IMG/VR virus record: IMGVR_UViG_3300025849_002046
Coordinates: 1-31,630 of that record
Source: a virus
Reading direction: 5' to 3' (one strand)
Length of the DNA stretch: 31,630 nt
Made by a program: the position numbers and the translations under genes. Below, piece after piece: positions 7,253-31,630 of this stretch (positions are counted from its first letter, which is position 1; each line of letters starts with the position of its first letter). The notes under the pieces were generated by a model. It did no database searches, was not told where the DNA came from, and saw only the letters and a program-made list of their open reading frames with translations.

Positions 7253-7474
7253 TCACTTAATGATATTAATCAATTGCTTAAATCCGCCTATAAATTCGGA
7301 ATCAATAAAAATTGCTGGCACTGTGCCAATGCTTGGATATTGTTCAACGAACTCTTCTCTGGTGATATCCTCACCAATCACGACTTCGGTGTATTCTAGG
7401 TTTTTCTGTGTCAAAAAACTCTTCGCTGAAACGCAGTGACTACAGTTATCTTTAGAGTAAATCTTTATCATCAT
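7253..7474 (-). CDS. nrdC: Glutaredoxin (likely electron donor to NrdAB)
   Basis: At 73 aa this is a minimal glutaredoxin with the redox motif Cys11-Ser-His-Cys14, a cis-proline in GTVPAIFID and the glycine pair FIGG. The family reduces disulfides using glutathione; T4 NrdC does so for ribonucleotide reductase. The position downstream of nrdA and nrdB supports that role. The usual Pro after the first Cys (CPYC) is replaced by Ser, which may shift redox potential. The start overlaps the end of the GIY-YIG gene by 23 bases. The symbol is by analogy with T4. Confidence 0.88.
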   Translation of the reverse strand: MMIKIYSKDNCSHCVSAKSFLTQKNLEYTEVVIGEDITREEFVEQYPSIGTVPAIFIDSEFIGGFKQLINIIK

Positions 7475-7901
7475 ATTTTATCTCGGTTAAATATTTGCCG
7501 GAAATTTTGCCGCCCATGAACTCATTGTAAAACTTGTCGCTCAATAAAACTTGGCGATTCACTTGTTCCACAACCTCATAGTAAGCGCATTGTGTTTTCG
7601 TATTACACAATACTAACATGTTTCTTGTTATATTGTCAATACCTTTTTCTTCTATCTCGCCTTGAAGTTGTTTATTTGATCCGTAGTATTTCTTCCAATC
7701 GGATTCTACTTTAGTCTTCTTTCTTCTTTTTCTAGTCTTGGTCACAGGTAGTATTTTTGATGACCAAAAAAACTTCTTACCGATATAGAATCTATTGGTA
7801 TCTTTGTTCTCTAGGATGTATACAAATCCGTAATAGTCGCCAATCATATCCGATTCAAACACTTCTCCCTCATAATACCAAGGATTTGAATAACTACTCA
7901 T
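7452..7901 (-). CDS. GIY-YIG-like nuclease domain protein
   Basis: The 149-aa protein carries a variant of the GIY-YIG pair, GFVYILE and FYIGKK, at residues 25-43. A basic linker (TKTRKRRKKTK), the segment DWKKYYGSN and a later glutamate in YYEVVEQ follow. This matches a family of small GIY-YIG proteins common in T4-like marine phages. GIY-YIG enzymes cut DNA; whether this one is a free-standing homing-type endonuclease or a host-DNA or repair nuclease cannot be decided here. It starts with an ATGA overlap with the zinc-ribbon gene and ends inside the glutaredoxin gene. Confidence 0.78.
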   Translation of the reverse strand: MSSYSNPWYYEGEVFESDMIGDYYGFVYILENKDTNRFYIGKKFFWSSKILPVTKTRKRRKKTKVESDWKKYYGSNKQLQGEIEEKGIDNITRNMLVLCNTKTQCAYYEVVEQVNRQVLLSDKFYNEFMGGKISGKYLTEIKYDDKDLL

Positions 7902-17822: not shown

Positions 17823-19176
17823 CTGATGGATCCTCATCTGAATCTGATGTTGGATTTTTGACTCTATCGCGAAAGTCTTGTCTAATTTTTGTTGTTGTTG
17901 TTCGTGAAACATCATCAATTGAAGATGCCTTTCTCAATAACTTTCTCAGTGCTTGGTTGACCTTTCCCTGACTTGGCGCGTCCATATAGAATGTCGGTAG
18001 ACCCTCTACATCCACTTTAAAGGTTGCTTCATCAAGATCAACTTCTTCAGCAACATCGCCTTTCGCATAACCATAAAGTGTTTTTAAATAGTCATTTGCC
18101 TTGGTGAGTTTATTCTGATACCACTCTTCCATATCGCCTTTTGCCTCGACGCTTGATTCGATACCATCAAGGTAATGGCGCATAGCAGCAATTTGTTTTT
18201 TCGCCATACTGACTTCCTCAGCACCGCCAGTATCAGAAGGATCAACTGCTTCATTCAAAGTATCCTGCATTTTCATGTAGTCTTTATCAGAAACAAAGTT
18301 TTTGTAAAGTGGCACCGAATGTTTCTTACCTTTCAGTGTAAAATAAATTTCTTTATTATTTTGACCGACATTTTTACCGCCATTCTTCATTATTTCTTTA
18401 CGAACAGTGGTAGAAATAACTGCGCCTTCATCAAGATCAACTTCTTCTAATTGAAAAGATGGATAATCGATTAAGTGTTTTGGCATTTGGCCTTTCTTGA
18501 CCATATCTCGAAACACCTTATCTAGATCAGGAATACGAATACCTGTCATTTGAGAAGTCTTTCTAAGATTCTGTACAGGACTATTTGGATTCTTTTTTCT
18601 CAAATCTAAGAACAAACGAATTGCTTTTTTATATTTGGAAGGCTGTGTCATTCTACTTAAAAATGATTTTATATCAGTTGTGGTGTCTTCATCAACTTCC
18701 TCGTTTCTAACTTTAGCGGCGAGATCGGCATCGGCCTTTCCCCATGTGCCCGAAGATTTAGTCACGAAAGAGTTGACCCTAGCAAGACCCCATTGCTCTG
18801 GAGTAGTTCCCGGACGGTGACCTGTTCGCCACGCAGCAACTCCACGATTGTATACCTTACGAAGTATGCTCACCGGCATACCAGTCTTATCTGCCTTATT
18901 CTTGAGTGCTTTACCAGCATCTTCAATGACAACTTCTTCGTGGTTTTTCTCTTCACCATACATATCTTTGAATTTTTTAGTATGACTAGATGGTTTGGTC
19001 TTGGCATCCGCATCACCCGGCGCAGGTTTGTACGCGGCCGCATTATCGTCATCCATTTTCGCACCTTTTTTAAAGTGAGCATCACGCTTTGTCTTTGTAG
19101 ACTTTGCAAGACCAGTATGGTACTTCTTTGGTTGAGAACCTTTACGATCTTTTATGTCTGGGTCTTCAGCTGCCAT
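17815..19176 (-). CDS. Modular capsid-cargo/core-type polyprotein, 453 aa
   Basis: The start at 19176 has AGAGGA 5 bases upstream and overlaps the previous stop by 11 bases. Modules in order are DPDIKDRKGSQPKKY with AHFKKGAKMDDDN (about 5-70), GKALKNKADKTGMP to SSGTWGKADADL (about 88-152), a basic helical domain (165-240), a domain at 250-305, a helical EEWYQNKLTKAND region (320-372) and a final helical part. The first two are modules I recall from many phages and some large viruses, with no known function. Linkers EEVVIEDA, EEVDLDEG (244-251) and EEVDLDEA (377-384) repeat between them and fit gp21-type cleavage sites. The basic modules could bind DNA in the head. No catalytic site is recognised. 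Confidence 0.72.
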   Translation of the reverse strand: MAAEDPDIKDRKGSQPKKYHTGLAKSTKTKRDAHFKKGAKMDDDNAAAYKPAPGDADAKTKPSSHTKKFKDMYGEEKNHEEVVIEDAGKALKNKADKTGMPVSILRKVYNRGVAAWRTGHRPGTTPEQWGLARVNSFVTKSSGTWGKADADLAAKVRNEEVDEDTTTDIKSFLSRMTQPSKYKKAIRLFLDLRKKNPNSPVQNLRKTSQMTGIRIPDLDKVFRDMVKKGQMPKHLIDYPSFQLEEVDLDEGAVISTTVRKEIMKNGGKNVGQNNKEIYFTLKGKKHSVPLYKNFVSDKDYMKMQDTLNEAVDPSDTGGAEEVSMAKKQIAAMRHYLDGIESSVEAKGDMEEWYQNKLTKANDYLKTLYGYAKGDVAEEVDLDEATFKVDVEGLPTFYMDAPSQGKVNQALRKLLRKASSIDDVSRTTTTKIRQDFRDRVKNPTSDSDEDPSDE

Positions 19177-19411
19177 TTTGTTCCTCTGGTGTAGGAATAA
19201 CTGTCTCTGGGTCAACATCAACTGCTGCCGGTGCAGGATCAGGAACTTCTACCGTATTGTTTTGTGTTACTGCTTCAACTTCATCTGGTGTCGCATGTTG
19301 TTGTGGTGCAAACTGCGACTCCAAATCCTTCTGATAGAGATTTTGATTTTTCATCATAATGTCTCTAACTGCGGCCATAACGCTTTCTGGTGTGTCATCT
19401 AATTTTGACAT
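19166..19411 (-). CDS. Small acidic hypothetical protein, 81 aa
   Basis: The first half is helical (PESVMAAVRDIMMKNQNLYQ), and the second half is acidic and proline-rich (EVPDPAPAAVDVDPETVIPTPEE), so likely disordered. It overlaps the 453-aa modular gene by 11 bases and directly abuts the cupin-like gene. Its size and charge would suit a small scaffold or head-core component, but I recognise no family. No signal or membrane segment. Confidence 0.6.
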   Translation of the reverse strand: MSKLDDTPESVMAAVRDIMMKNQNLYQKDLESQFAPQQHATPDEVEAVTQNNTVEVPDPAPAAVDVDPETVIPTPEEQNGS

Positions 19412-19681
19412 TCAATTTTCCTCATCAATTAATAATATTAAAGGTGTTGTTCCTTTGACAACACGATGATATCTCATGGATTCAATCGTGAATGTATCAC
19501 CTTTGTTCAACTTAAACGGAATCTCATTATCATACTGAAATTGCCATCCTTCACCTGACATCACATCAACTTTTCGGTCGTGTTCGTCTTGGTGCCACAC
19601 CAACTCTATTTCAGGCACATCTAATGAGAAGGTCCTCATTTTCTTTCCATCGTGCATTAACAATTCTAGATATGGATTCAT
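19412..19681 (-). CDS. Cupin-like small protein, 89 aa
   Basis: The start at 19681 overlaps the previous stop as TAATG; the longer frame upstream would run deep into the NTase gene. The pattern HQDEHDRKVDVMSGEGWQFQYD, PFKLNKGDTFTIES, YHRVVKGTTPLILLIDE has the beta-strand spacing of a cupin barrel (gGxWxf, GDxfxIxxxxxHRvvkG). A histidine is available in each half. No specific enzyme can be named; it may be a metal-binding or purely structural cupin. It sits within the head-type gene block. Confidence 0.65.
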   Translation of the reverse strand: MNPYLELLMHDGKKMRTFSLDVPEIELVWHQDEHDRKVDVMSGEGWQFQYDNEIPFKLNKGDTFTIESMRYHRVVKGTTPLILLIDEEN

Positions 19682-21399
19682 TACCAGAAATAATTTCCAC
19701 CACCAGAAAGACCAAGTTGTTTCGCGAATTGTGGCAATCTGCACGCCCAATATCCTGGTTTGGTTTTATCTTTCTTCATATCACACTGATGACGAGCAAC
19801 AAATGACTTTCTTGCTGCGGGATCATCAAGTTTTACTTTTAATCCAGAAGTATCGCCAAACGATACCTTCTTTATATTGCCTGTATTCGGGTCTTTGACA
19901 TGCACATAGAACTTCTTTGGACCACCGCGTTTGGGTTTATTTAGTTCAACATCTTCTTCTTCATTTAACATGGGTAAGTCTAAAGGAACTTCAATTCCCT
20001 CATACAAACCAAACTCACCAATATCAGAGGTGAGTAGTTCGTGATCAAATGAATCACCCACCGACAGTGTGCCTGCGGCATATTGTTTCTTCGCCTCAGT
20101 ATACAACTTATAATAATTCGCACTATGCATTCGGAATATGTTTTCTGAGAACGGTATGTCTTCAATCAAATGATGATCAATCGCTTCATTGATCTTTTGT
20201 TTTTGATTATTGGCGAGAATAACATTAAGACGATCAAATGTCCACTGTTCTTCTGATTTAGTATTTTCGTGAACATAATAAGAACCACGACAATCAATAT
20301 ATAAGTTTTTTATCTCTTCAAGTGAAACGCCATAACGATCACTTTTTTTTATTAAATTCTTTTCAATGCTTTCGCTGATTGTCTCATATTCCACTTGTTC
20401 AATTATGGGCATCAGAAGAGGCGCTAACTCCTCGTTTTTCTTGCTTCGCATTTTTTTGAATCGTTCAGTCTCATCTCGTTTGACCTTGCTCTTCAATTTC
20501 TTAGCAATACGAGCTATCGCTGATTTCTTCTTCTCAACTTTCTTGTCAATTGCCATACGACCAGAAACCGAGAGATTGGCGTAGTTTTCACCACCTTTAC
20601 CGGCAACCTTCTTACGAATGATTTCTTTTGCTTGGCGTTGAGCCCTCATCTTTAGTTTTTCCGGTGATGCTCTTTTCTTCGCAGCAATCTTTTTACCGCG
20701 AGCGATTTTGGACTTCAGTTTTCGCATGATTTGTTTGCGCTTCATGCGTTGTCGTTGATCCAACACCTCTGTGAGTTCTTCTGTAATACCCATATTTTCC
20801 CTTATAGTATCATACATTATCTTAGAATCACGGTCGCTCAACTTACTAGGCACTCCTTTGCGGAATTCGTCATACTTACCATCAGTGGCAAACGCTCGCA
20901 GTTTTGATGCGCTCATACCAGAAACATCGTTGGCATCAGGGTCGCGATCACCAGCAGAAACTATTTCAAGACTATTATAGTTATAGTCTTTACCATTATA
21001 CTTGTTTAGTAGTGTTTTAAACTCGGACACGCGATCGCTTCCTACAACAACCTTTACATCGTCATAGTCTTTATCGAGTTCTTTTAGAACTTCTATGATT
21101 GTTCGGGCCTTGGATTTTTTCATCACATTGCCGAATGATTTTTTGGCGAACTTATACTTGTCGTTATAAGAGAGGGGATTCGTCTTTTTGTCCTGCTTAT
21201 GGGACATATAAACCTTTGCGTCTGCGCCTTCTTTCTTCGCGACAGACTTCACCTTATCAACCAGTTTCTCGTGACCAGTTGTAGGTGGATTTAGTCTACC
21301 AAAAGAAACGACTGCGGCAGACCCGGCTTTCTCGGATAAATGAGACTTTTCGATGTTTTCCAGTGAACGCCCAACACTGTTATTTTCGGTTACTTTCAT
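19681..21399 (-). CDS. Nucleotidyltransferase fused to phage cargo modules, 572 aa
   Basis: The first 200 residues form a cytidylyltransferase-like domain. FGRLNPPTTGHEKL (34-47) is the HxGH-type nucleotide motif and GMSASKLRAF (161-170) is the late (S/T)xxR motif, as in NMN or pantetheine-phosphate adenylyltransferases. The substrate is not evident. A very basic middle (about 215-325, RMKRKQIMRKLKSKIARGK and similar) could bind DNA. The last 85 residues hold the recurrent phage module RKSFVARHQCDMKKDKTKPGYW ending in GGGNYFW. HLSEK near residue 20 and LNEEEDVELN are possible head-protease sites. A perfect TATAAATA lies 69 bases upstream, so late expression is likely. The enzyme may be packaged in the capsid. 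Confidence 0.78.
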   Translation of the reverse strand: MKVTENNSVGRSLENIEKSHLSEKAGSAAVVSFGRLNPPTTGHEKLVDKVKSVAKKEGADAKVYMSHKQDKKTNPLSYNDKYKFAKKSFGNVMKKSKARTIIEVLKELDKDYDDVKVVVGSDRVSEFKTLLNKYNGKDYNYNSLEIVSAGDRDPDANDVSGMSASKLRAFATDGKYDEFRKGVPSKLSDRDSKIMYDTIRENMGITEELTEVLDQRQRMKRKQIMRKLKSKIARGKKIAAKKRASPEKLKMRAQRQAKEIIRKKVAGKGGENYANLSVSGRMAIDKKVEKKKSAIARIAKKLKSKVKRDETERFKKMRSKKNEELAPLLMPIIEQVEYETISESIEKNLIKKSDRYGVSLEEIKNLYIDCRGSYYVHENTKSEEQWTFDRLNVILANNQKQKINEAIDHHLIEDIPFSENIFRMHSANYYKLYTEAKKQYAAGTLSVGDSFDHELLTSDIGEFGLYEGIEVPLDLPMLNEEEDVELNKPKRGGPKKFYVHVKDPNTGNIKKVSFGDTSGLKVKLDDPAARKSFVARHQCDMKKDKTKPGYWACRLPQFAKQLGLSGGGNYFW

Positions 21400-21425
21400 A
21401 ATTGGAGTTTGCCTTAACCTTATCC

Positions 21426-21457
21426 CAGTTAGCGCAGGTCTGCCGTAGCCTAAACTG
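21426..21457 (-). other. Imperfect hairpin in the leader of the late NTase gene
   Basis: Between the late-type promoter and the NTase start, the minus strand reads CAGTTTAG (21457-21450) and, 17 bases later, CTAACTG (21432-21426). These can pair over 7 bases with one bulged T. The inner loop is GC-rich compared with its surroundings and could pair further. It may stabilise the mRNA or modulate translation; nothing more can be shown. Confidence 0.3.
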
Positions 21458-21467
21458 CTTACATGTT

Positions 21468-21475
21468 TATTTATA
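21468..21475 (-). promoter_or_regulatory. Late promoter, perfect TATAAATA
   Basis: The minus strand carries TATAAATA, the full consensus of T4 late promoters read by gp55-type sigma. It is in a true intergenic gap (21400-21498) and sits 69 bases before the NTase start. This supports late expression of the NTase and of the modular proteins that follow. Confidence 0.7.
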
Positions 21476-21498
21476 CATTTTTAATTTTTATAAAATGA

Positions 21499-22152
21499 TT
21501 ACTTGGGGTCGTAAATATACACCGTGTCCATTCTTCCTTTACTATACTCAACATAACCTTCTAATTCAATTACATGATACCCAGATCCCTGTTCTAGTAT
21601 GATTGGAGGTCTGAATTTTTGAATTGTTTGTAGAGCACCGATCAACACTTTTGGTTCATAAGTTTCAACATCTAAATGTATTAGATCACATTGTTCTAAG
21701 TTCAATCCATCGATTGTATACATCACAGTGTCGCCAGGTGTTTCAGATATCTGATGTTCTCCGACATTTATCATCGATTTGCGGACTATAGTTTTACTGA
21801 GTGTGTCAGCACCCAGACCACCAAAGTATTTGTGATACTGGTCGCCCACACAGTTTAACTCCAAACAAGCGTAGTTGATTGGACAAGGTTCAAATGTATA
21901 TACATTTTCAAAATAGTTTGCGTAAAAACGAGGATACATTCCACAGTTGCCACCGGCCTGTATTACAGTATTGAACTGTTTGACCGGTCTCATGAAGTCA
22001 TCGCGATTTGTAATCCAATCGCACAGTGGTCCAGACCTTTCGCTTCCATAAGCACCCCGATCAGATGTAATCCACCAGAATTCAGGAACACCTTCGAATC
22101 CACACTTTCTCTTAGAAATTAATTGTTGGAACTGCCCATTATTTTCAGTCAT
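21499..22152 (-). CDS. FkbM-family methyltransferase
   Basis: The 217-aa protein has the FkbM-type SAM-binding region VIQAGGNCGMYPRFYANYF near 64-82. FEPCPINYACLELN follows with the acidic residue of motif II. DLIHLDVETYEPKVLIGA and PPIILEQG come later. The family O-methylates sugars and other small acceptors; members in phages are common and their acceptors are mostly unknown. The second ATG (22152) has the better spacing from AAGGA. It stands in the late block between the interrupted KWDGAPA gene and the NTase gene. Together with the glycosyltransferase it may modify a glycan on a virion or host structure. Confidence 0.82.
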   Translation of the reverse strand: MTENNGQFQQLISKRKCGFEGVPEFWWITSDRGAYGSERSGPLCDWITNRDDFMRPVKQFNTVIQAGGNCGMYPRFYANYFENVYTFEPCPINYACLELNCVGDQYHKYFGGLGADTLSKTIVRKSMINVGEHQISETPGDTVMYTIDGLNLEQCDLIHLDVETYEPKVLIGALQTIQKFRPPIILEQGSGYHVIELEGYVEYSKGRMDTVYIYDPK

Positions 22153-22175
22153 CATCTATCCTTCATTATTTAAAA

Positions 22176-23441
22176 TTATTTTTCCCAACCTTTGATTATG
22201 TCCGGTGAAAAATTGGCCTGAGAGAATCCCAATCGGTCAACCAATTTTACAGCATCATTGGATAGATGGTCTATCGCAACAAATCCTTCCTGTTCCGTCA
22301 CTTTGAATCCATTGCGTGTTCGTAGAAAGGTAGACATACCACTCGCTTTATTCATTTTATTTATAATCAAATCTTTAGCGTCTGCCAGTAGATTGACCAA
22401 TAAGAATACATTTGATAAATCGTTTTTACTATATTCGTTAAAGACTGACATCGCATCAATCTGTCTATCGACCCAGACTTTCTTTGACTTCTCCGTTTTC
22501 TTTTTATCAATTTCTTTTTGATAGAAATTGTAAATGTAATCCATCAATCCTTTGACATGAGTTTTAGGATTAATCTTCTTTCCTGCTCGAACGAATGTAT
22601 TATTATACACCTTGGTTTTTTCTCGGAACTCTTTATTGTTCTTAAACTCATCAAGAAGTTTCGACGGTATCTTACGGAACAATGCGCCAGCAGATGAGAG
22701 TATTTTTGTCACCTCTTCTGTTTCTGATTTAGTAAATGATGCCGCTCCACTCACATCTTTATAGGTTGCATCGTCTTGCCAAATAGAAGAACTAGATTTA
22801 AATCCCTTCACTATATCTTTACCAAAAGAAGCAGACATAGACTCAAAAGAATCACCAGTGTAAGTAGTATGCCAAACAACACCGATATTAGCTTTGAATA
22901 TCGATTTTCCAAGACTAGACTTGACAGGCACAGCATAAACAATAGTGTTAGGTTGAAAAGTATAAAGACTTTCTCCATCGATGGTCTCCTTACTAACGTC
23001 ACCTTTCGTAAACATTAGGTCGCCTTGATATACTCCACTCTTAATTCCTAACTTGGAGAATTCCTCAAGTGCGATCAGTAACTTTGTTTGAAGGTCGCCG
23101 GAAGTATCTGCCTTCACATCTGCGGGAGTCTTGTATACCTTTGGGTTCTTATTAAAGATACCTTTCTTTGCAACGAAGAACTCACCGTCACGCGGGTCAA
23201 CACCAACAAATATAGCAGGAGCACCATCCCACTTGACCGTTCGGATAACTGATGATTTGTTATTGCCCGACAACATGTCACGAAGGTCACGGAGGAAATT
23301 GATTGACTTGCGGGTTCCTTTCACACCTCCATCAAATATTAGGTCCTCAAGTCAAAGGTGCTCCATGTGTGTGTTCTTTTGTTCAATTAAGAAACGGTCG
23401 AACGACAACACGGAGCGGAAACCTCCTGATTGTTTTATCAT
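22176..23441 (-). CDS. KWDGAPA-motif protein, interrupted by in-frame TGA
   Basis: The frame from 22176 is open to 23351 and continues in the same frame, after one TGA at 23354-23352, up to an ATG at 23441. The piece before the TGA reads SFDRFLIEQKNTHMEHL and the piece after it LEDLIFDGGVKGTRKSINF. Together they look like the continuous N-terminus (THMEHLEDLIFDGG) of a family common in T4-like marine phages. The only starts after the TGA are a GTG at 23324, with GGAGG too close to work well, and internal ATGs. TVKWDGAPAIFVG resembles the KxDG site of covalent nucleotidyltransferases and ligases, but the family has no proven function that I know. GTG at 23411 with AGGAGG 10 bases upstream is an alternative start. 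See the recoding site. Confidence 0.75.
23349..23357 (-). other. CTT-TGA-CTT: possible recoding or bypass site
   Basis: On the minus strand the codons run CAC CTT TGA CTT GAG GAC. The stop is flanked on both sides by identical Leu codons. Moving peptidyl-tRNA-Leu from the first CTT to the second would skip TGA and give HMEHLEDLIFDGG, the expected family sequence; reading through would give HMEHL-x-LEDL. UGA followed by C is a leaky stop context. CACCT (23360-23356) can pair with AGGTG (about 23328-23324) to enclose the site. It could equally be a simple 6-base insertion that breaks the gene. Confidence 0.55.
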
Positions 23442-23483
23442 GCGTAATTTACCTTTACGTTATGTCTAATGAAATTAATCACC

Positions 23484-24161
23484 CTATGTTTTGTTTCTGG
23501 CTTTCTCTTGAGAGATCCATCCTTTAGCAAGTTTATTATCAATTGGTCTTTTTGTAAACTTCAATACGTCTTTATATGCCCGAAGCGTCTCTGCCTTATA
23601 GTCCTTACCGTTTGAGTTATCAACCACTAAAAAGTTCTTTTTGCCAAAATGGGTTTGAAACATACCGATATTCTTCTGAATTAATTCCCACATCTTAGCG
23701 ACTTCTTCATCGGGCAATGAACGCTCGCGGTTTCGATTACGTTCAAGTGCGGTTTCTTTGTCGGTGTTTACAAATATCATTGAAACATCATAACCTAAAT
23801 CTTTCATCATCTTGGATTGCTTTTTGAGTTTTGCGAAGTCTCGGCCTGTTCCATCAATAACAACACCTAAACGACCTTTCAAATATCTCTCTAACTTTTT
23901 AGCGGTGATCATTTTTGCTCTACCACGAATTGCTTGACCTTCATTAGAGAAAATCTCATCAGGTGTCATTGCCTTACCAGACTTCTTCATTGCATTCTCA
24001 AATGCATCGTCTGAGTTGACAACACGGAAACCAAGTTGCGGAAGACCAGTCTTACCTACGATGAATGACTTACCAGAACCAGGACCACCTGCGAGGAAAA
24101 CTGCTTTAAAAATTGCGGGGTCATTGACTCCCTCAGAAATAAATTGATTAAATGTTTTCAT
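23484..24161 (-). CDS. P-loop kinase/zeta-toxin-like protein with capsid-targeting N-terminus
   Basis: The 225-aa protein has VFLAGGPGSGKSFIVG as Walker A (21-36). A basic helical lid (FVNTDKETALERNRNRERSLPDEEV) is of the kind found in zeta-toxin and polynucleotide-kinase-like P-loop enzymes, and VVIDGTGRDF may be Walker B. It should phosphorylate an unknown substrate. The first residues MKTFNQFISEG closely resemble the capsid-targeting leader of T4 internal proteins (MKTYQEFIAE, cut after the last E), so the enzyme may be packaged into the head. The start overlaps the previous stop as ATGA. The family is clear; the packaging is inference. Confidence 0.82.
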   Translation of the reverse strand: MKTFNQFISEGVNDPAIFKAVFLAGGPGSGKSFIVGKTGLPQLGFRVVNSDDAFENAMKKSGKAMTPDEIFSNEGQAIRGRAKMITAKKLERYLKGRLGVVIDGTGRDFAKLKKQSKMMKDLGYDVSMIFVNTDKETALERNRNRERSLPDEEVAKMWELIQKNIGMFQTHFGKKNFLVVDNSNGKDYKAETLRAYKDVLKFTKRPIDNKLAKGWISQEKARNKT

Positions 24162-24589
24162 TTTTTCTCCATGTGAAAAACATCTGAACTCGAAGATGAC
24201 TTGTCAGTTGTTGTCTTGTATCCCCACTTGGAAGCGTATCTTTTTAACAGTTTGCTGTATAAACTTGTTCTACTAACACCCATAGATTTGTCTGCCGTGA
24301 ACGACACATAGTTTGGCTTTACTTTTTTAAGAAATTTCTCAGTCGCGGAAATCACTGTGGCGAAGATTTTCATTTCGTCGCCTTCACCTGTTTTTTTAAT
24401 ACTGCCGTCACGGGTAAATACAATGTTCCACTGTATGTCATCAAATTCGACACCGGTGAATTCTATTTCCAAATTTGATCCGTCAGGTAACTTTGTCTTA
24501 GAGACATACTCCAGGCTGTCAACTTTCTTTAGTTTGACAGGATAAGGTTTATCGAATGCCTCTAAAATAAACTGATTAAATGTTTTCAT
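24158..24589 (-). CDS. Hypothetical protein with capsid-targeting N-terminus, 143 aa
   Basis: MKTFNQFILEAF at the N-terminus is nearly the same as that of the next gene, and the rest of the two proteins is unrelated. The body reads SLEIEF-type beta strands, then GEGDEMKIFATVISATEKFLKKVKPNYVSFTADK and RTSLYSKLLKRYASKWGY. This layout is shared with a family of phage proteins I recall as unannotated, possibly acetyltransferase-like (GNAT). The second ATG (24589) has AGGA at 6 bases and is preferred. It overlaps the P-loop gene by ATGA. It may be packaged in the head like its neighbour. Confidence 0.72.
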   Translation of the reverse strand: MKTFNQFILEAFDKPYPVKLKKVDSLEYVSKTKLPDGSNLEIEFTGVEFDDIQWNIVFTRDGSIKKTGEGDEMKIFATVISATEKFLKKVKPNYVSFTADKSMGVSRTSLYSKLLKRYASKWGYKTTTDKSSSSSDVFHMEKK

Positions 24590-24649
24590 CATAAATCCTT
24601 TACTTAAATGAGAAATCGCACATTACTCGATAGAAGTTTTATTTCTATC

Positions 24650-24657
24650 TATTTATC
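24650..24657 (-). promoter_or_regulatory. Possible late-type promoter (GATAAATA)
   Basis: GATAAATA, one mismatch from the late consensus, lies 61 bases before the 143-aa gene and partly overlaps the stop of the 426-aa gene. The gap 24593-24655 otherwise holds nothing recognised. Position and neighbours support a late promoter, but the octamer is frequent by chance here. Confidence 0.45.
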
Positions 24658-25936
24658 AATGGCCGATTCCGTTAAATTTAATAGCCAAATTAAATCCCTG
24701 TGCGATTTTATTATTCGGCGGTGGTTGATTGGTACGAATAGACATTTTCATCGTAATTGTTTCTTTTGCAATAAGATCGATAAACCATTCCTGTTTCGAC
24801 GATGACGATTTACGCGCTACAATTTTTTTACAACCCGGAAGATGCGTTTCAATTGCGTCTTCATCTGTCACATATTTAAAATCTTTTCCGAATGCCTTCA
24901 CGACCTCAAGAGGCACATTCTCGTCTCTTTTAATAATTTTTCTTTTAATGTAATTTTCTGCGTCTTTCTTATTCAAATTGACCGCATCGATTACCGCTTT
25001 TCTACACAACTCCAACTGTTTGTCGTACAGTGTTTCATACTCGGCCGGTTTATCTGTCTTAAACTGTTCAATCGTTTCAATTGCATCTTTCTTATTGGCT
25101 GCCTCTTGCCACTTCTCCGGTAAACCCACCTTTTCGTGTACGTTTCTGTACACCGAGGCCTTCAATTTATTCTTGTCGGTCTGACGATTCATATCATCAA
25201 AGAACTTATTAACGTATGTATTTAATTGAGGTTCAGCAGACTTCGCGCTGCCGGCTTTCAGTGATACACCTAGCATACTTCCAGTCTTAAACTTAACAAA
25301 TAGATCGCCTTTGTGGTCGGTATTGACACCTATTGGTTTTGCACGATAAGCAAAATAGACTTGTTCGATTGGCGTATCTTTGTCGAGTGCCCATAGATAT
25401 TTGAGTACACCCATTGCATTCTCCATCTTCTCTTTAAACTTAGAAGATGTTGGCATATCTTTAATGAAGTCATGTCCTGCTTGTTGATCTTTTGTGTTTA
25501 GATAACAACCAGACTGGTTTGCCTGTTTAAGGGTTGCTTCCAGAAAAGAATAAAATTTATTCACATCTGAGAAAGTCTTCTTATTGGACATGAATGCCAG
25601 TGCAGGCGCCAGTTCGGTGATCGTTGAATTCAAAGTTGTTTCAGACATACCGCCTGACAAAGCTTTGTAGGTGACTCTGACTTTGTAATCATCAACCATA
25701 ATGTCAGTCGCGCCGATACTTCCACCAGCACGAACACCAACATAGTCATATTTTTTAGTTTTTAGTTTTTTCTCAATAGCAACCTTCACATCTGATCGTT
25801 CTGTGGAAGGTGCCCGCACAATCACAATTGCAGTCGAGTTATTTTGTTCTTTAATTGTGTATGTGTAAGGCGCAATGCACTTTTTCAGCGCATTTTCTTT
25901 TGTTATGCTAAGTTTATTAATACGTCCCGCGGCCAT
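24656..25936 (-). CDS. Hypothetical protein, 426 aa
   Basis: I do not recognise this gene. The N-terminal 120 residues are mixed alpha-beta and basic, with AGGSIGATDIMVDDYKVRVTYKALSGG near 70-96. A middle part has NTDHKGDLFVKFKTG and GVSLKAGSAKSAEPQLNTY, faintly like a D...(S)xK nuclease core of the PD-(D/E)XK type. The rest is mostly helical and charged, ending in a beta-rich KQEWFIDLIAKETITMKMSI segment. Nothing suggests a signal peptide. It is the first gene of the late-type block, preceded by CATAAATA 33 bases before the start. A virion or head-packaged protein is possible. Confidence 0.7.
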   Translation of the reverse strand: MAAGRINKLSITKENALKKCIAPYTYTIKEQNNSTAIVIVRAPSTERSDVKVAIEKKLKTKKYDYVGVRAGGSIGATDIMVDDYKVRVTYKALSGGMSETTLNSTITELAPALAFMSNKKTFSDVNKFYSFLEATLKQANQSGCYLNTKDQQAGHDFIKDMPTSSKFKEKMENAMGVLKYLWALDKDTPIEQVYFAYRAKPIGVNTDHKGDLFVKFKTGSMLGVSLKAGSAKSAEPQLNTYVNKFFDDMNRQTDKNKLKASVYRNVHEKVGLPEKWQEAANKKDAIETIEQFKTDKPAEYETLYDKQLELCRKAVIDAVNLNKKDAENYIKRKIIKRDENVPLEVVKAFGKDFKYVTDEDAIETHLPGCKKIVARKSSSSKQEWFIDLIAKETITMKMSIRTNQPPPNNKIAQGFNLAIKFNGIGH

Positions 25937-25968
25937 AACTCATCCCTATGAGTAGAGTGGTATGGCAT

Positions 25969-25976
25969 TATTTATG
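25969..25976 (-). promoter_or_regulatory. Possible late-type promoter (CATAAATA)
   Basis: CATAAATA, one mismatch from TATAAATA, overlaps the stop codon of the 199-aa gene and sits 33 bases before the 426-aa gene. It lies where expression would change from early-type genes on the right to virion-type genes on the left. Evidence is by position and similarity only. Confidence 0.4.
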
Positions 25977-26571
25977 CGGCCGCCAGTTCTGTTTGTTTGA
26001 ACCAAGTAGGTACGTCACGATTTTTCCAAGTCATTGAGAACCTTTCTTGTTTGGTCTGATAGAATAAACGATAGGACTCAACAACGTCATCTTTCATACA
26101 CTCTGGGTTTGACTTCATTGCTAAAGGCATTTTCGTCAGAGGACCTTTGGGTATGTTACGAGGAGGAGAACGCAAAGGCCATAGAACCTTTTCCGCGCCA
26201 TGAAACTTACCGTATCGATGCGTATACTCGGCACAGAGCGTATACATGTGTCGCCAATGCCATCGGTAGTTGGATTCTGTTTCCATAGTCCATACAGTGG
26301 AAGGATGTCCCATATGAACGGCTCTATAATATATCATCTCCGCTTCAAGATCATCGCGACCTTCAAACAAGTCCCAGTATTTGACCATGCGTTTGCCTGA
26401 TACTGATGGTCGCATAGTGAGTTTACCGTCAAGCATACGATGTGCTGTTGAAAGCATTTGTCCGGACTCAGTTGGCATTTTCACCACATGTTTATCACAC
26501 TGGACTTGAGCCGATAAGACTGGACAAGGTTCATCTGAACCAGGTCTATATTCAAGTGGAAATATATTCAT
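25972..26571 (-). CDS. Phage protein of the CDKHVVKM family, 199 aa
   Basis: The motif QVQCDKHVVKMPTESGQMLSTAHR (about 23-46) followed by HPSTVWTMETESNYRWHWRHMYTLCAEYTHRYGKFH marks a family widespread in T4-like phages and large viruses. I recall no proven function. Conserved C, H, K and E residues clustered near the N-terminus suggest an enzyme active site; a nucleic-acid enzyme is sometimes suggested for it. The start overlaps the stop of the lipoprotein gene as TAATG. No membrane segment is seen. Confidence 0.75.
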   Translation of the reverse strand: MNIFPLEYRPGSDEPCPVLSAQVQCDKHVVKMPTESGQMLSTAHRMLDGKLTMRPSVSGKRMVKYWDLFEGRDDLEAEMIYYRAVHMGHPSTVWTMETESNYRWHWRHMYTLCAEYTHRYGKFHGAEKVLWPLRSPPRNIPKGPLTKMPLAMKSNPECMKDDVVESYRLFYQTKQERFSMTWKNRDVPTWFKQTELAAA

Positions 26572-27041
26572 TAAAATAACTTATTCAAGAAGTGATTTAT
26601 TTTCTCGTCTATCTTACGTTCCATTTTATTTTTGAAATTTTGTTTGGCGCGTTGCGAGGCATACCCGCTGTAAGTATTTCTTCGATCACGTTGTATCCGC
26701 CCATACTGTTTCTGAATGTAAATCTCATGTTCGCGCTCGTAGTTACGAGTGCCGTCAGAGTTATAGGCACAACACACGCCAGGTAATTCTTGATAGTTGA
26801 GCGAAGAAACGTTTGTTCCTCGCACTAACGGAACATTAGAGTTTACTTCAATATCAACATTCTTACTATTATTAGAATGTGCCGCGGCAGCCGCAGCTGC
26901 TCCAGTTGCTTGAATATCTCTTTGGTCTGCTGTTGAATTATCAACATATGTAGATGGTTGGGTTGAACAACCTATGGTCAATAACATTGCGACCGCGATT
27001 GTGGTTTGTTGTAACTTGCTGTTCCAATAAGTATTTTTCAT
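26571..27041 (-). CDS. Secreted lipoprotein, 156 aa
   Basis: The N-terminus KLQQTTIAVAMLLTIGCSTQ is a lipoprotein signal peptide with lipobox TIGC and the lipidated cysteine near residue 25. The mature part has a low-complexity ATGAAAAAAAH segment, two adjacent cysteines (GVCCAY) and a basic, helical C-terminus (RAKQNFKNKMERKIDEKIN). It would sit in the inner or outer membrane facing the periplasm. Phage lipoproteins of this kind can change surface receptors or block superinfection, but nothing here proves that. AGG precedes the ATG by 4 bases. Confidence 0.75.
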   Translation of the reverse strand: MKNTYWNSKLQQTTIAVAMLLTIGCSTQPSTYVDNSTADQRDIQATGAAAAAAAHSNNSKNVDIEVNSNVPLVRGTNVSSLNYQELPGVCCAYNSDGTRNYEREHEIYIQKQYGRIQRDRRNTYSGYASQRAKQNFKNKMERKIDEKINHFLNKLF

Positions 27042-29914: not shown

Positions 29915-31291
29915 TTATTTCCATGAGTTAAACACCGTTTTATCTACACGTTCGCGTTTCAGTCCAGCACCAAAGTCACTGTTATCCATCACGGGTTTGT
30001 CATCTATAGATGGTATTACTGCCTGTTGATTTTCAGCATTGTATAGTTTCATTCTTGACCGATCAACACCGACAACGAACCTTCGGTGCATTGATGGATC
30101 GCCGTAACGATTCTTTAGTTGTTTGATCATTATCTGATTCATTCCTTCGAGTTCTTCTGACGAGATGGCAGCGACCATAAAGTCTGCTGTTGCTGGGAGT
30201 CCGAATGATTCTGAGGTGTCTTCGAGTCCCACATCGGACGATGTAAAACCAGTACGATTTGTCTGCGTTGCTGTAAAGATCGGTAGGTTGTTTTCAACGG
30301 CAAGTCCTCTCAGTTCTTCTGCGATGGCTTTTACAAGAGTATAACTATTCACGACACCGCCCATTTTCATTCGAGATGAAATGCACAAGTTCAGATAGTC
30401 AATATAGATAATATCAGGCGAAAACTTTTTCTTTAATTTTAATTCATTCAGTAAATGACGGAAGTGCGCTGCGCCAACAGAGGCAGTAGGATATTCCTTG
30501 ATGACCAGTTTACCTTCAGTCTTTTTACGAATACGATCGATCTTGGTTTCAAATGTTTGCTTAGGATAAGTTTCTAACTCATTCAGCGGAATGTCCATCA
30601 GGTTAGCATCGATTCTTTCAGCAATGCGTTCTTCAGCAACCTCAAGTGTAATGTATAAAACATTCTTACCTTCCATCATATTTGCCGCTGCGAAGTGACA
30701 CATCATCAGGGTTTTTCCAACGCCAGTGCCAGCTAGTATAACATTGAGAGTTTTACGAGGAACACCACCGCGAGTGATCGTATTGAAAAGATCAATATCA
30801 AAAGAAGTTCGTTCTACCTTCTGATGATAGAAGTCATATCGTTGTTGTGAATCTTCAAGGAAATCGTGACCAATATGTGTGTCAAATGATACCGCGAGAG
30901 CATCCGATAGAATCTCTGGTAACGCACCCTTATCTTTCTTAGAGTTGCCTTCAATAACCTGTATTGATTCCATGATGGCATTATAGATTGCCTTGTCTTG
31001 ACACCACTTCTCGGTCTTTTCGCTCAACCAATCATTATCATCTTCTGAGGTGTTTAATCGGCCGATCAGGTCTATACTATAATCATAGTTATCTTGATTG
31101 ACACTGAGATTATCAAGTTCGATTTTAAGGGCATGTTTAGTGGGTGAGTTATTATATTGTGTAAAGTAATCAAAGATCAAACGAAAGACAGTCACATTCG
31201 AATGACTAAAATATTCTTTCTTTAAAAACGGTGATACATTTCTAATATAGTTTTCATTATTTAAAAGATTGGAGAGAATCATCTCTTCCAT
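29915..31291 (-). CDS. 41: Replicative DNA helicase (T4 gp41, DnaB family)
   Basis: From the ATG at 31291 the protein is 458 aa and starts MEEMILSNLL, aligning with T4 gp41 MVEIILSHLI. The frame also has a TTG at 31306, so 31306 is an alternative start. The RecA-like domain has Walker A LAGTGVGKT (186-194), IIYIDYLNL as Walker B, LLNELKLKKKF as in T4, and FGLPATADFM with KQLKNRYGD near the end. It unwinds DNA 5'-3' as a hexamer and recruits the gp61-type primase coded farther left. The start lies 7 bases after the deaminase stop. Assignment is firm. Confidence 0.95.
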   Translation of the reverse strand: MEEMILSNLLNNENYIRNVSPFLKKEYFSHSNVTVFRLIFDYFTQYNNSPTKHALKIELDNLSVNQDNYDYSIDLIGRLNTSEDDNDWLSEKTEKWCQDKAIYNAIMESIQVIEGNSKKDKGALPEILSDALAVSFDTHIGHDFLEDSQQRYDFYHQKVERTSFDIDLFNTITRGGVPRKTLNVILAGTGVGKTLMMCHFAAANMMEGKNVLYITLEVAEERIAERIDANLMDIPLNELETYPKQTFETKIDRIRKKTEGKLVIKEYPTASVGAAHFRHLLNELKLKKKFSPDIIYIDYLNLCISSRMKMGGVVNSYTLVKAIAEELRGLAVENNLPIFTATQTNRTGFTSSDVGLEDTSESFGLPATADFMVAAISSEELEGMNQIMIKQLKNRYGDPSMHRRFVVGVDRSRMKLYNAENQQAVIPSIDDKPVMDNSDFGAGLKRERVDKTVFNSWK

Positions 31292-31298
31292 ATTCACT

Positions 31299-31630
31299 TC
31301 AGTCAAGTTTTTTTCCTACTACTTTGATGGACGGTATGTCACATTGCGATAGAAACTGCTGACCGCAACCCTTTGATGCTTCGTATGTATTCCTATAGTA
31401 TAACACAGATATACCCGCTTGGTAAATACATTTTGCACATTCAATGCAAGGAAAATGTGTTACAAAGATTGATGCATCTTTACCGGATTCCGAAGAGCGA
31501 GCAAGTTTCATCAGAGCATTCATTTCAGCATGTAACACCTCTGGTTTGGTTTTGAGATATGTTCCACCGTCCTCATAGAGAAACTCATCCTCACATTCGT
31601 TCGACCAACCAGAAGGTGTGCCATTGTATC
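31299..31630 (-). CDS. cd: Deoxycytidylate deaminase (partial, runs off right edge)
   Basis: The frame is open to the last base, so the N-terminus is missing. The visible 110 residues carry YNGTPSGWSNECEDE, then HAEMNAL with the zinc-binding His and catalytic Glu, and PCIECAKC with two zinc-ligand cysteines. This is the dCMP deaminase pattern of T4 Cd. The enzyme turns dCMP into dUMP for thymidylate synthesis, supporting the NrdAB genes in the same window. It is followed after 7 bases by gp41, so both are likely in one transcript. Confidence 0.93.
   Translation of the reverse strand, partial: YNGTPSGWSNECEDEFLYEDGGTYLKTKPEVLHAEMNALMKLARSSESGKDASIFVTHFPCIECAKCIYQAGISVLYYRNTYEASKGCGQQFLSQCDIPSIKVVGKKLD

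Follow-up and report, generated by a model that had tools for sequence, protein, structure and literature searches.

The closest described precedent for the locus analysed here is bacteriophage T4 gene 60. In that gene bypass is set off by a 5' stem-loop that finishes forming behind the ribosome and pulls on the mRNA, and the 50-base insert may have protected against the nuclease that spread the 5' homing endonuclease (both from the available text of PMC5009743; the accessible part of PMC2988022 is a further source for this precedent). The available portion of PMC3014915 states that the bypassing process appears unique to gene 60. In-frame bypassing has been shown with synthetic constructs, as stated in the available sections of a 2016 recoding review (PMC5009743). 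The same sections describe synthetic stop hops (Weiss 1987), in which codons matched around a stop allow nine bases to be decoded as one amino acid, and they note that in-frame stop hopping could explain some supposed readthrough, with no occurrences known. They also describe the byp elements of Magnusiomyces capitatus mitochondria, which occupy 81 sites in one mitochondrial genome. In tobacco mosaic virus, CAA-UAG-CAA is read through and no hop peptide was found, according to the accessible part of PMC2754532. Among the literature matches listed, whose coverage leaves most subscription journals outside, we found neither a published natural stop hop nor any work on DUF6267, the protein family concerned here.

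The analysed stretch of DNA, referred to as the window, comprises the 31,630 bases of a virus record. Its minus strand carries a DUF6267 gene (22176-23441), which runs from an ATG at 23441 to a TAA at 22178-22176 and contains one internal TGA. The protein matched Pfam PF19782 with an E-value of 3e-96 and 323.5 bits, above the curated cut-off of 27, and is also phrog_455. Re-reading of the sequence confirmed the earlier observation that a single TGA (23354-23352) lies between two CTT codons in an otherwise open frame. The upstream reading stretch (23352-23441) comprises 29 codons from the ATG to the TGA, and a GTG at 23411-23409, preceded by AGGAGG (23427-23422), is a candidate alternative start. 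The putative take-off codon is the CTT (Leu) at 23355-23357 and the putative landing codon the CTT (Leu) at 23349-23351, with resumption proposed at GAG (23348-23346). The part that would be translated after the hop (22176-23351) includes the KWDG motif (from about 23234 down). All these features are on the minus strand.

Without TGACTT, the window gene reads THMEHLEDLIFDGG. The sequence-only reading had expected that skipping these six bases would restore the family sequence, and this was borne out by the homologues. The 80 best IMG/VR relatives have the corresponding stretch, as HMxH-x-ED or a close form, with no stop. In the alignment the window carries six bases more than the insert-free relatives, and skipping them gives the exact family spacing. 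A query beginning after the stop matched the Pfam profile only from position 18; the domain start therefore spans the stop.

The interruption is not unique to the window. Looking for the same TGA in related phages, we recovered nine distinct alleles by pattern scans. They come from divergent phages and are all interrupted at the identical codon boundary, by TGA in eight and by TAG in one. The flanking codons encode one amino acid and share their first two bases in all nine alleles, and all three bases match in seven. The pair CTT/CTT occurs six times, around TGA in the window (=L085), L084, L177, L179 (=L184) and L181, and around TAG in L187. The combinations ATT-TGA-ATT (Ile/Ile, L178), CTG-TGA-CTT (L176) and CTT-TGA-CTA (L180, =L182) occur once each. 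A single tRNA-Leu can read CUU, CUA and CUG, and a hop is therefore compatible with the two imperfect pairs; likewise, the UAG allele means that there is no requirement specific to UGA. Three alleles were each present on two contigs (window/L085, L179/L184 and L180/L182). L085 carries the same TGA as the window and differs from it by only three substitutions between 16477 and 29400, which places both in one phage population; it was treated as the window allele, and independence of its reads from those of the window cannot be assumed. The two records are near-identical to about 29480 and then diverge strongly in the helicase gene (window 29915-31306), with 102 synonymous and 21 other codon changes, reflecting either strain recombination or a chimeric contig. 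L084 belongs to a distant phage, with 67-71% nucleotide identity to the window over the longer aligned pieces, and the two share 24 identical bases at the site, ATGGAGCACCTTTGACTTGAGGAC.

The scans varied in what they demanded. The first, for the motif with TGA, gave two contigs, L085 and L084. A wider one, for TGA or TAA with NTN flanks, gave 12 contigs, ten of them DUF6267 and all ten with TGA. When both flanking codons were left free, in a scan that covered TGA only, ten contigs (eight distinct alleles) were found, all DUF6267 and all with matched pairs. Searching for the 5' leader that the THMTH alleles carry, with no stop demanded, gave 12 contigs, eight of which were already known; it added L187 with CTT-TAG-CTT, and L188, L190 and L189 without insert. 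Any insert of 3-33 extra bases at this position, sense or stop, in THMEH-type genes was matched by 14 contigs, among which only L084 and L085 were DUF6267. The genome_contigs scan gave a single match, L186, which was unrelated.

The insert was absent in 128 distinct fetched relatives, as collected by a regular expression that demanded insert-free spacing; the nearest of those fetched were 79-80% identical. The one fetched DUF6267 locus missed by the expression, L082, was also insert-free. The others that failed it, L086-L097, L183 and L185, were judged chance pattern matches, and L081, L085 and L186 were excluded from the relatives' counts. A tree of 138 proteins requires at least seven changes of the stop state, implying that it was gained or lost repeatedly. 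DUF6267 relatives were found in 327 of 50,697 phage records, all below 60% identity, and 313 of the 327 records are named Synechococcus, Cyanophage or Prochlorococcus. Searches of this collection gave no megablast match to window 19000-27000, no near match to 11.9 kb of L084, and only a 17-base chance match to a 34-base query across the site. The third base of codon -2 (window 23361-23363) is G in all nine distinct stop alleles, as ACG or GAG, and most neighbouring synonymous sites vary. The codon is ACG in 7/7 against 4/37 (p 8.6e-6), a value that is too small because the seven ACG alleles share a module, probably by descent.

Comparison of coding changes indicated that the stop-bearing genes are under purifying selection. 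After the stop, dN/dS was 0.09-0.13 in the five estimable pairs (window/L001, window/L015 and L178/L143 0.11 each; L187/L189 0.09; L176/L145 0.13), four other pairs being saturated and L179/L184 differing by one change. In a branch test on five trios, we compared the amino-acid share of the changes on the stop branch with that of the sister changes (p 0.33, 0.09, 0.41, 0.70 and 0.14). The share was higher on the stop-bearing branch in four of the five trios, two of these four using the window, and in none was the difference significant.

Across 141 kb of stop-bearing sequence, the DUF6267 site was the sole stop of this kind among genes with relatives. A stop fell inside a protein alignment at 129 positions. 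Eleven were the DUF6267 site, with 103-161 queries each, and the remaining 118 had 1-7 queries each; 108 of the latter lay opposite a longer ORF, and the other ten lay at gene edges, in other frames or opposite the short upstream stretch. The parent records of L187 and L189, compared with 91 query ORFs matched in each direction, gave, besides the DUF6267 site, a false row where a gene begins and four stop rows in three short ORFs (101-168 aa) of ambiguous coding strand. Reassignment of TGA is not supported, since the site stands alone in the 141 kb and one allele has TAG. Selenocysteine is unsupported for the latter reason. Decoding by a suppressor tRNA is also unsupported, none being found in the window or in the L187/L189 parent records G010/G011 (pieces cut at 20 kb). 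ARAGORN called a tmRNA at L196:7501-7869, in the 147-kb phage record behind L187.

Folding controls identified a strong predicted 5' hairpin that ends at the take-off site in the window and L084. In the window the predicted 5' arm GCTCCGTG (23409-23416, minus) pairs with the 3' arm CATGGAGC (23360-23367, minus), which ends two bases before the take-off codon. The folded stretch (23352-23425, minus) reached -25 kcal/mol with a z of -3.88, and the corresponding stretch of L084 -33 kcal/mol with a z of -6.72; in both cases 0 of 200 shuffles were as stable. Over the stretch from -66 to +3, the window and L084 were each more stable than all 128 relatives. When the 5' arm was cut (-54 to +3), five of the 128 reached the stability of the window, and none that of L084. 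Synonymous redraws that preserved the protein, and that assume the whole stretch to be coding, were as stable in 2-3 of 1000 cases for the window and in 0 of 1000 for L084. The outer stem common to both consists of eight pairs (GCUCCRUG/YAUGGAGC), in which two one-sided changes keep the pairing. Further in, most pairs are not shared, each sequence forming its own set. The sequence-only reading had instead described a weak stem, CACCT/AGGTG, enclosing the site. It is absent from the predicted fold, and folding downstream of the landing codon was no stronger than in the relatives (p 0.45-0.97).

Upstream arms of the seven THMTH-type alleles paired no better than those of relatives (p 0.47; p 0.10 for all nine alleles), and the upstream folding of the nine taken jointly did not differ from that of relatives (p 0.16). 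The leader of the THMTH alleles, GCCGATTATG, was considered as part of the element, as initially it occurred in 0 of 118 other listed leaders. It was rejected in this role because L188/L190 and L189 have it without the insert, and it therefore marks a shared 5' module. The leader could pair with CATATGACGC, at the same position as the window hairpin; the energy of this pairing was no better than in relatives, which leaves it unproven. Conservation of the upstream peptide does not depend on the presence of the stop, so a nascent-peptide signal would look the same in the sequence as ordinary conservation.

A homing endonuclease gene, or what is left of one, lies beside six of the nine distinct interrupted alleles. 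Directly upstream in L178 is a gene for a GIY-YIG protein (PF01541, 5.8e-6; SegE-type PF19835, 7.2e-7), and 67 bases separate the end of its coding part from the take-off codon. The C-terminal part of the endonuclease, with the nuclease domain missing, precedes the site in L176, L179/L184, L180/L182, L181 and L187. Searched with a profile of this tail, 8 of 11 stop records (six of nine distinct alleles) gave a clear score, as did one of 162 other loci, the insert-free L189; for 152 of the 162 the searchable stretch was 250 bases or more, and the next best E-value was 1.7. No endonuclease or remnant was found upstream in the window, L084 or L177, the last of which has only 235 bases upstream. 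Counted on distinct rows, an endonuclease or 3' remnant lies upstream of six of nine alleles against one of 128 (Fisher p 7e-8). Once relatedness is counted, two to three informative independent pairs remain, all concordant and none discordant (p 0.25), and the link is not significant. The window itself encodes a SegE-type GIY-YIG protein at 7452-7901 (PF19835, 6.6e-33), about 15 kb from the site.

L178 and L143 are identical at 29 of 30 bases right after the insert, and at 23, 16 and 4 of 30 going upstream. The 5' module thus seems to have moved as a unit, its junction lying close to the insert. Contig names place L187 and L189 in one sample; these two agree at 87 of 90 bases between -60 and +30, beyond which 15-25 bases match in each block of 30. 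L189 retains an endonuclease scar without the insert, and L188/L190 the leader without it.

We consider an in-frame stop hop over TGACTT to be the best explanation of the DUF6267 site, and hold it with somewhat better than even confidence. On this view TGACTT would be a very short non-coding insert over which the ribosome passes. While CUU occupied the P site and the slow-to-decode UGA the A site, the peptidyl-tRNA-Leu would release its codon, the mRNA would move by six bases, and the same tRNA would re-pair with the second CUU. Nine bases would then yield one leucine, and the normal DUF6267 protein would result. In the window and L084, the hairpin refolding behind the ribosome could pull the mRNA, by analogy with T4 gene 60, and a short pull would suit a six-base movement. 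The matched flanks in all nine alleles, the Ile pair, the UAG allele, the exact restoration of the motif and the 5' hairpin in two alleles speak for the hop. The tobacco mosaic virus precedent and the THMTH class, whose upstream pairing does not exceed that of relatives, speak against certainty. The likeness to T4 gene 60 suggested from the sequence alone is strengthened by these matched-flank stops, one of them TAG and one in the form Ile-stop-Ile, by the two hairpins, and by the endonuclease or remnant beside six of the nine alleles.

The extra bases might instead be translated. A near-cognate or suppressor tRNA would read the stop and leave two extra residues (X-Leu) in the motif. UGA followed by C is a leaky stop context, and UGA is followed by C in seven of the nine distinct alleles. 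Hopping does not follow from identical codons around a leaky stop, as tobacco mosaic virus also shows (available part of PMC2754532). Readthrough, however, gives no reason for the codon match across the stop, found in every allele including Ile/Ile, and one allele has TAG. The additional residues would fall between H20 and E22-D23, which are nearly invariant in 60 sequences, and at the start of a confidently predicted helix, where no sense insert of 3-33 bases was found in THMEH-type genes. With no suppressor tRNA in the window or in the 20-kb pieces of G010/G011 either, we regard readthrough as unlikely. Another proposal is that translation yields nothing but a shorter protein, through reinitiation or internal initiation downstream of the stop, for example at the in-frame GTG 23324 of the window. 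Purifying selection after the stop needs only translation of that part. Yet among the 12 codons past the landing codon no start codon is common to the nine alleles, and the column of GTG 23324 reads GTG, GTC, GTG, GTA, GTC, GCG, GTT, GTA and GTG. The part before the stop also appears constrained: N15, H17 and M18 are the same in all 60 relatives compared, and over the ten codons that precede the stop L178/L143 show 7 synonymous and 0 other changes and L181/L174 show 6 and 0 (4 and 3 in window/L001). An interrupted gene yielding only the shorter product is thus very unlikely in our judgement.

That the TGACTT insertion simply kills the gene, as the sequence-only reading had allowed, is contradicted by its recurrence and by dN/dS near 0.1. 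Most relatives, including the closest fetched, lack the insert, and the slight excess of amino-acid changes on the stop branch in four of five trios, though not significant, would fit a recent disabling insertion recurring by chance. Nine distinct alleles, three of them on two contigs each and every one with a single in-frame stop and matched flanks, make such an insertion, or an assembly error, scarcely credible. The insert could also serve as a regulatory device, an inefficient hop or readthrough limiting or timing synthesis of the enzyme, with the endonuclease as a bystander. It does persist where the endonuclease is reduced to its 3' tail (L176, L179, L180, L181 and L187) or absent (window and L084). 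Against this, 128 distinct relatives manage without the insert, L189 keeps the scar without it, and the insert clusters with endonuclease remnants, so that we think a regulatory role quite unlikely.

Returning to the hop, its origin may lie in a mobile module, in which a GIY-YIG endonuclease travels with a six-base insert of a stop plus matching codon that disarms its own target, the hop being aided by a 5' stem-loop. We propose this tentatively, at a level just short of even confidence. The insert probably spread together with the endonuclease gene that lies immediately before DUF6267, and it would shield the DUF6267 gene from cleavage, as the neighbourhood and T4 mobA/gene 60 suggest; in the window the endonuclease would subsequently have been lost.

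The predicted structure of an insert-free relative (L001) had a mean pLDDT of 84.9 and put the site where a long helix (21-47) begins. Confidence was low for residues 1-17, despite the invariance of N15, H17 and M18 in the 60 sequences. Foldseek gave only weak matches to this model (best E 0.096); ligases made up six of the first eight. In a second look with VIA-align, the 50 listed rows were polynucleotide ligases, with a best Z of 7.3, a level that may reflect merely a common arrangement according to the tool's own warning. The model suggests, without proving, that DUF6267 is a ligase-like nucleotidyltransferase, with KWDG as its putative KxDG motif. An AAA_33 kinase-like gene (window 23484-24161) and a cytidylyltransferase-like gene (19681-21399) lie nearby. 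In view of these neighbours and the ligase-like model, the gene group could be a nucleic-acid repair operon. In L084 (280-2474, minus) the DUF6267 gene is interrupted after KWDG by an apparent split intein, consisting of an N-terminal half, a separate ORF (216 aa, no Pfam match) and a C-terminal half that ends VLAHN before SPAVF. This arrangement resembles the 'fractured genes' of marine phages.

If the proposed reading is true, these phages provide natural in-frame stop hops whose natural variation in stop identity, take-off codon and hairpin is directly testable. They would also provide a second link, after T4 gene 60, between homing endonucleases and skipped inserts, and gene 60 would become an instance of a more widespread strategy instead of a curiosity. 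The finding would likewise caution gene finders, to which stop-hop genes would look truncated.

The known systems each share part of this arrangement. Synthetic stop hops have matched codons flanking a stop and nine bases for one amino acid, as proposed here, but the DUF6267 case is natural, lies in a conserved phage gene and has a hairpin in two alleles. Hop efficiencies in the synthetic constructs are low. The byp elements are likewise short inserts skipped by translation in otherwise normal genes, and they occupy 81 sites in a single mitochondrial genome, in contrast to one site in one gene family. Tobacco mosaic virus also has a stop between identical codons, though there readthrough has been shown, and we know of no insert-free orthologues that would show what a hop restores. 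The E. coli prfB frameshift site has CTT TGA C with a purine-rich stretch upstream, and so does the window. However, an RF2-like +1 shift was rejected, because the +1 frame of the window meets a TAA after four codons and the THMTH alleles are without such an upstream stretch.

The likeness to T4 gene 60 extends to matched take-off and landing codons (nine of nine alleles) and a stop directly after the take-off codon (TGA in eight alleles, TAG in one). An upstream stem-loop like that of gene 60 is predicted to be strong in the window and L084 and does not exceed relatives in the seven THMTH alleles. A possible counterpart of mobA, which lies near gene 60 in T4, is the endonuclease, with a full gene in L178 and 3' remnants in five more alleles; it is absent at the window, L084 and L177, and the link is not significant after correction for relatedness. 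Among the differences, the gap is 50 bases in gene 60 and three at the DUF6267 site, with a movement of six, and the hop here would leave the frame unchanged. The site is carried by several marine phages, and its endonuclease is of the GIY-YIG type, in contrast to the HNH enzyme of T4. The take-off stem-loop and the nascent-peptide signal are features of T4, whereas folding downstream of the DUF6267 site equals that of relatives. The DUF6267 site is most likely a variant of programmed bypassing, in which the stop would be passed over much as the gap of T4 gene 60 is jumped.
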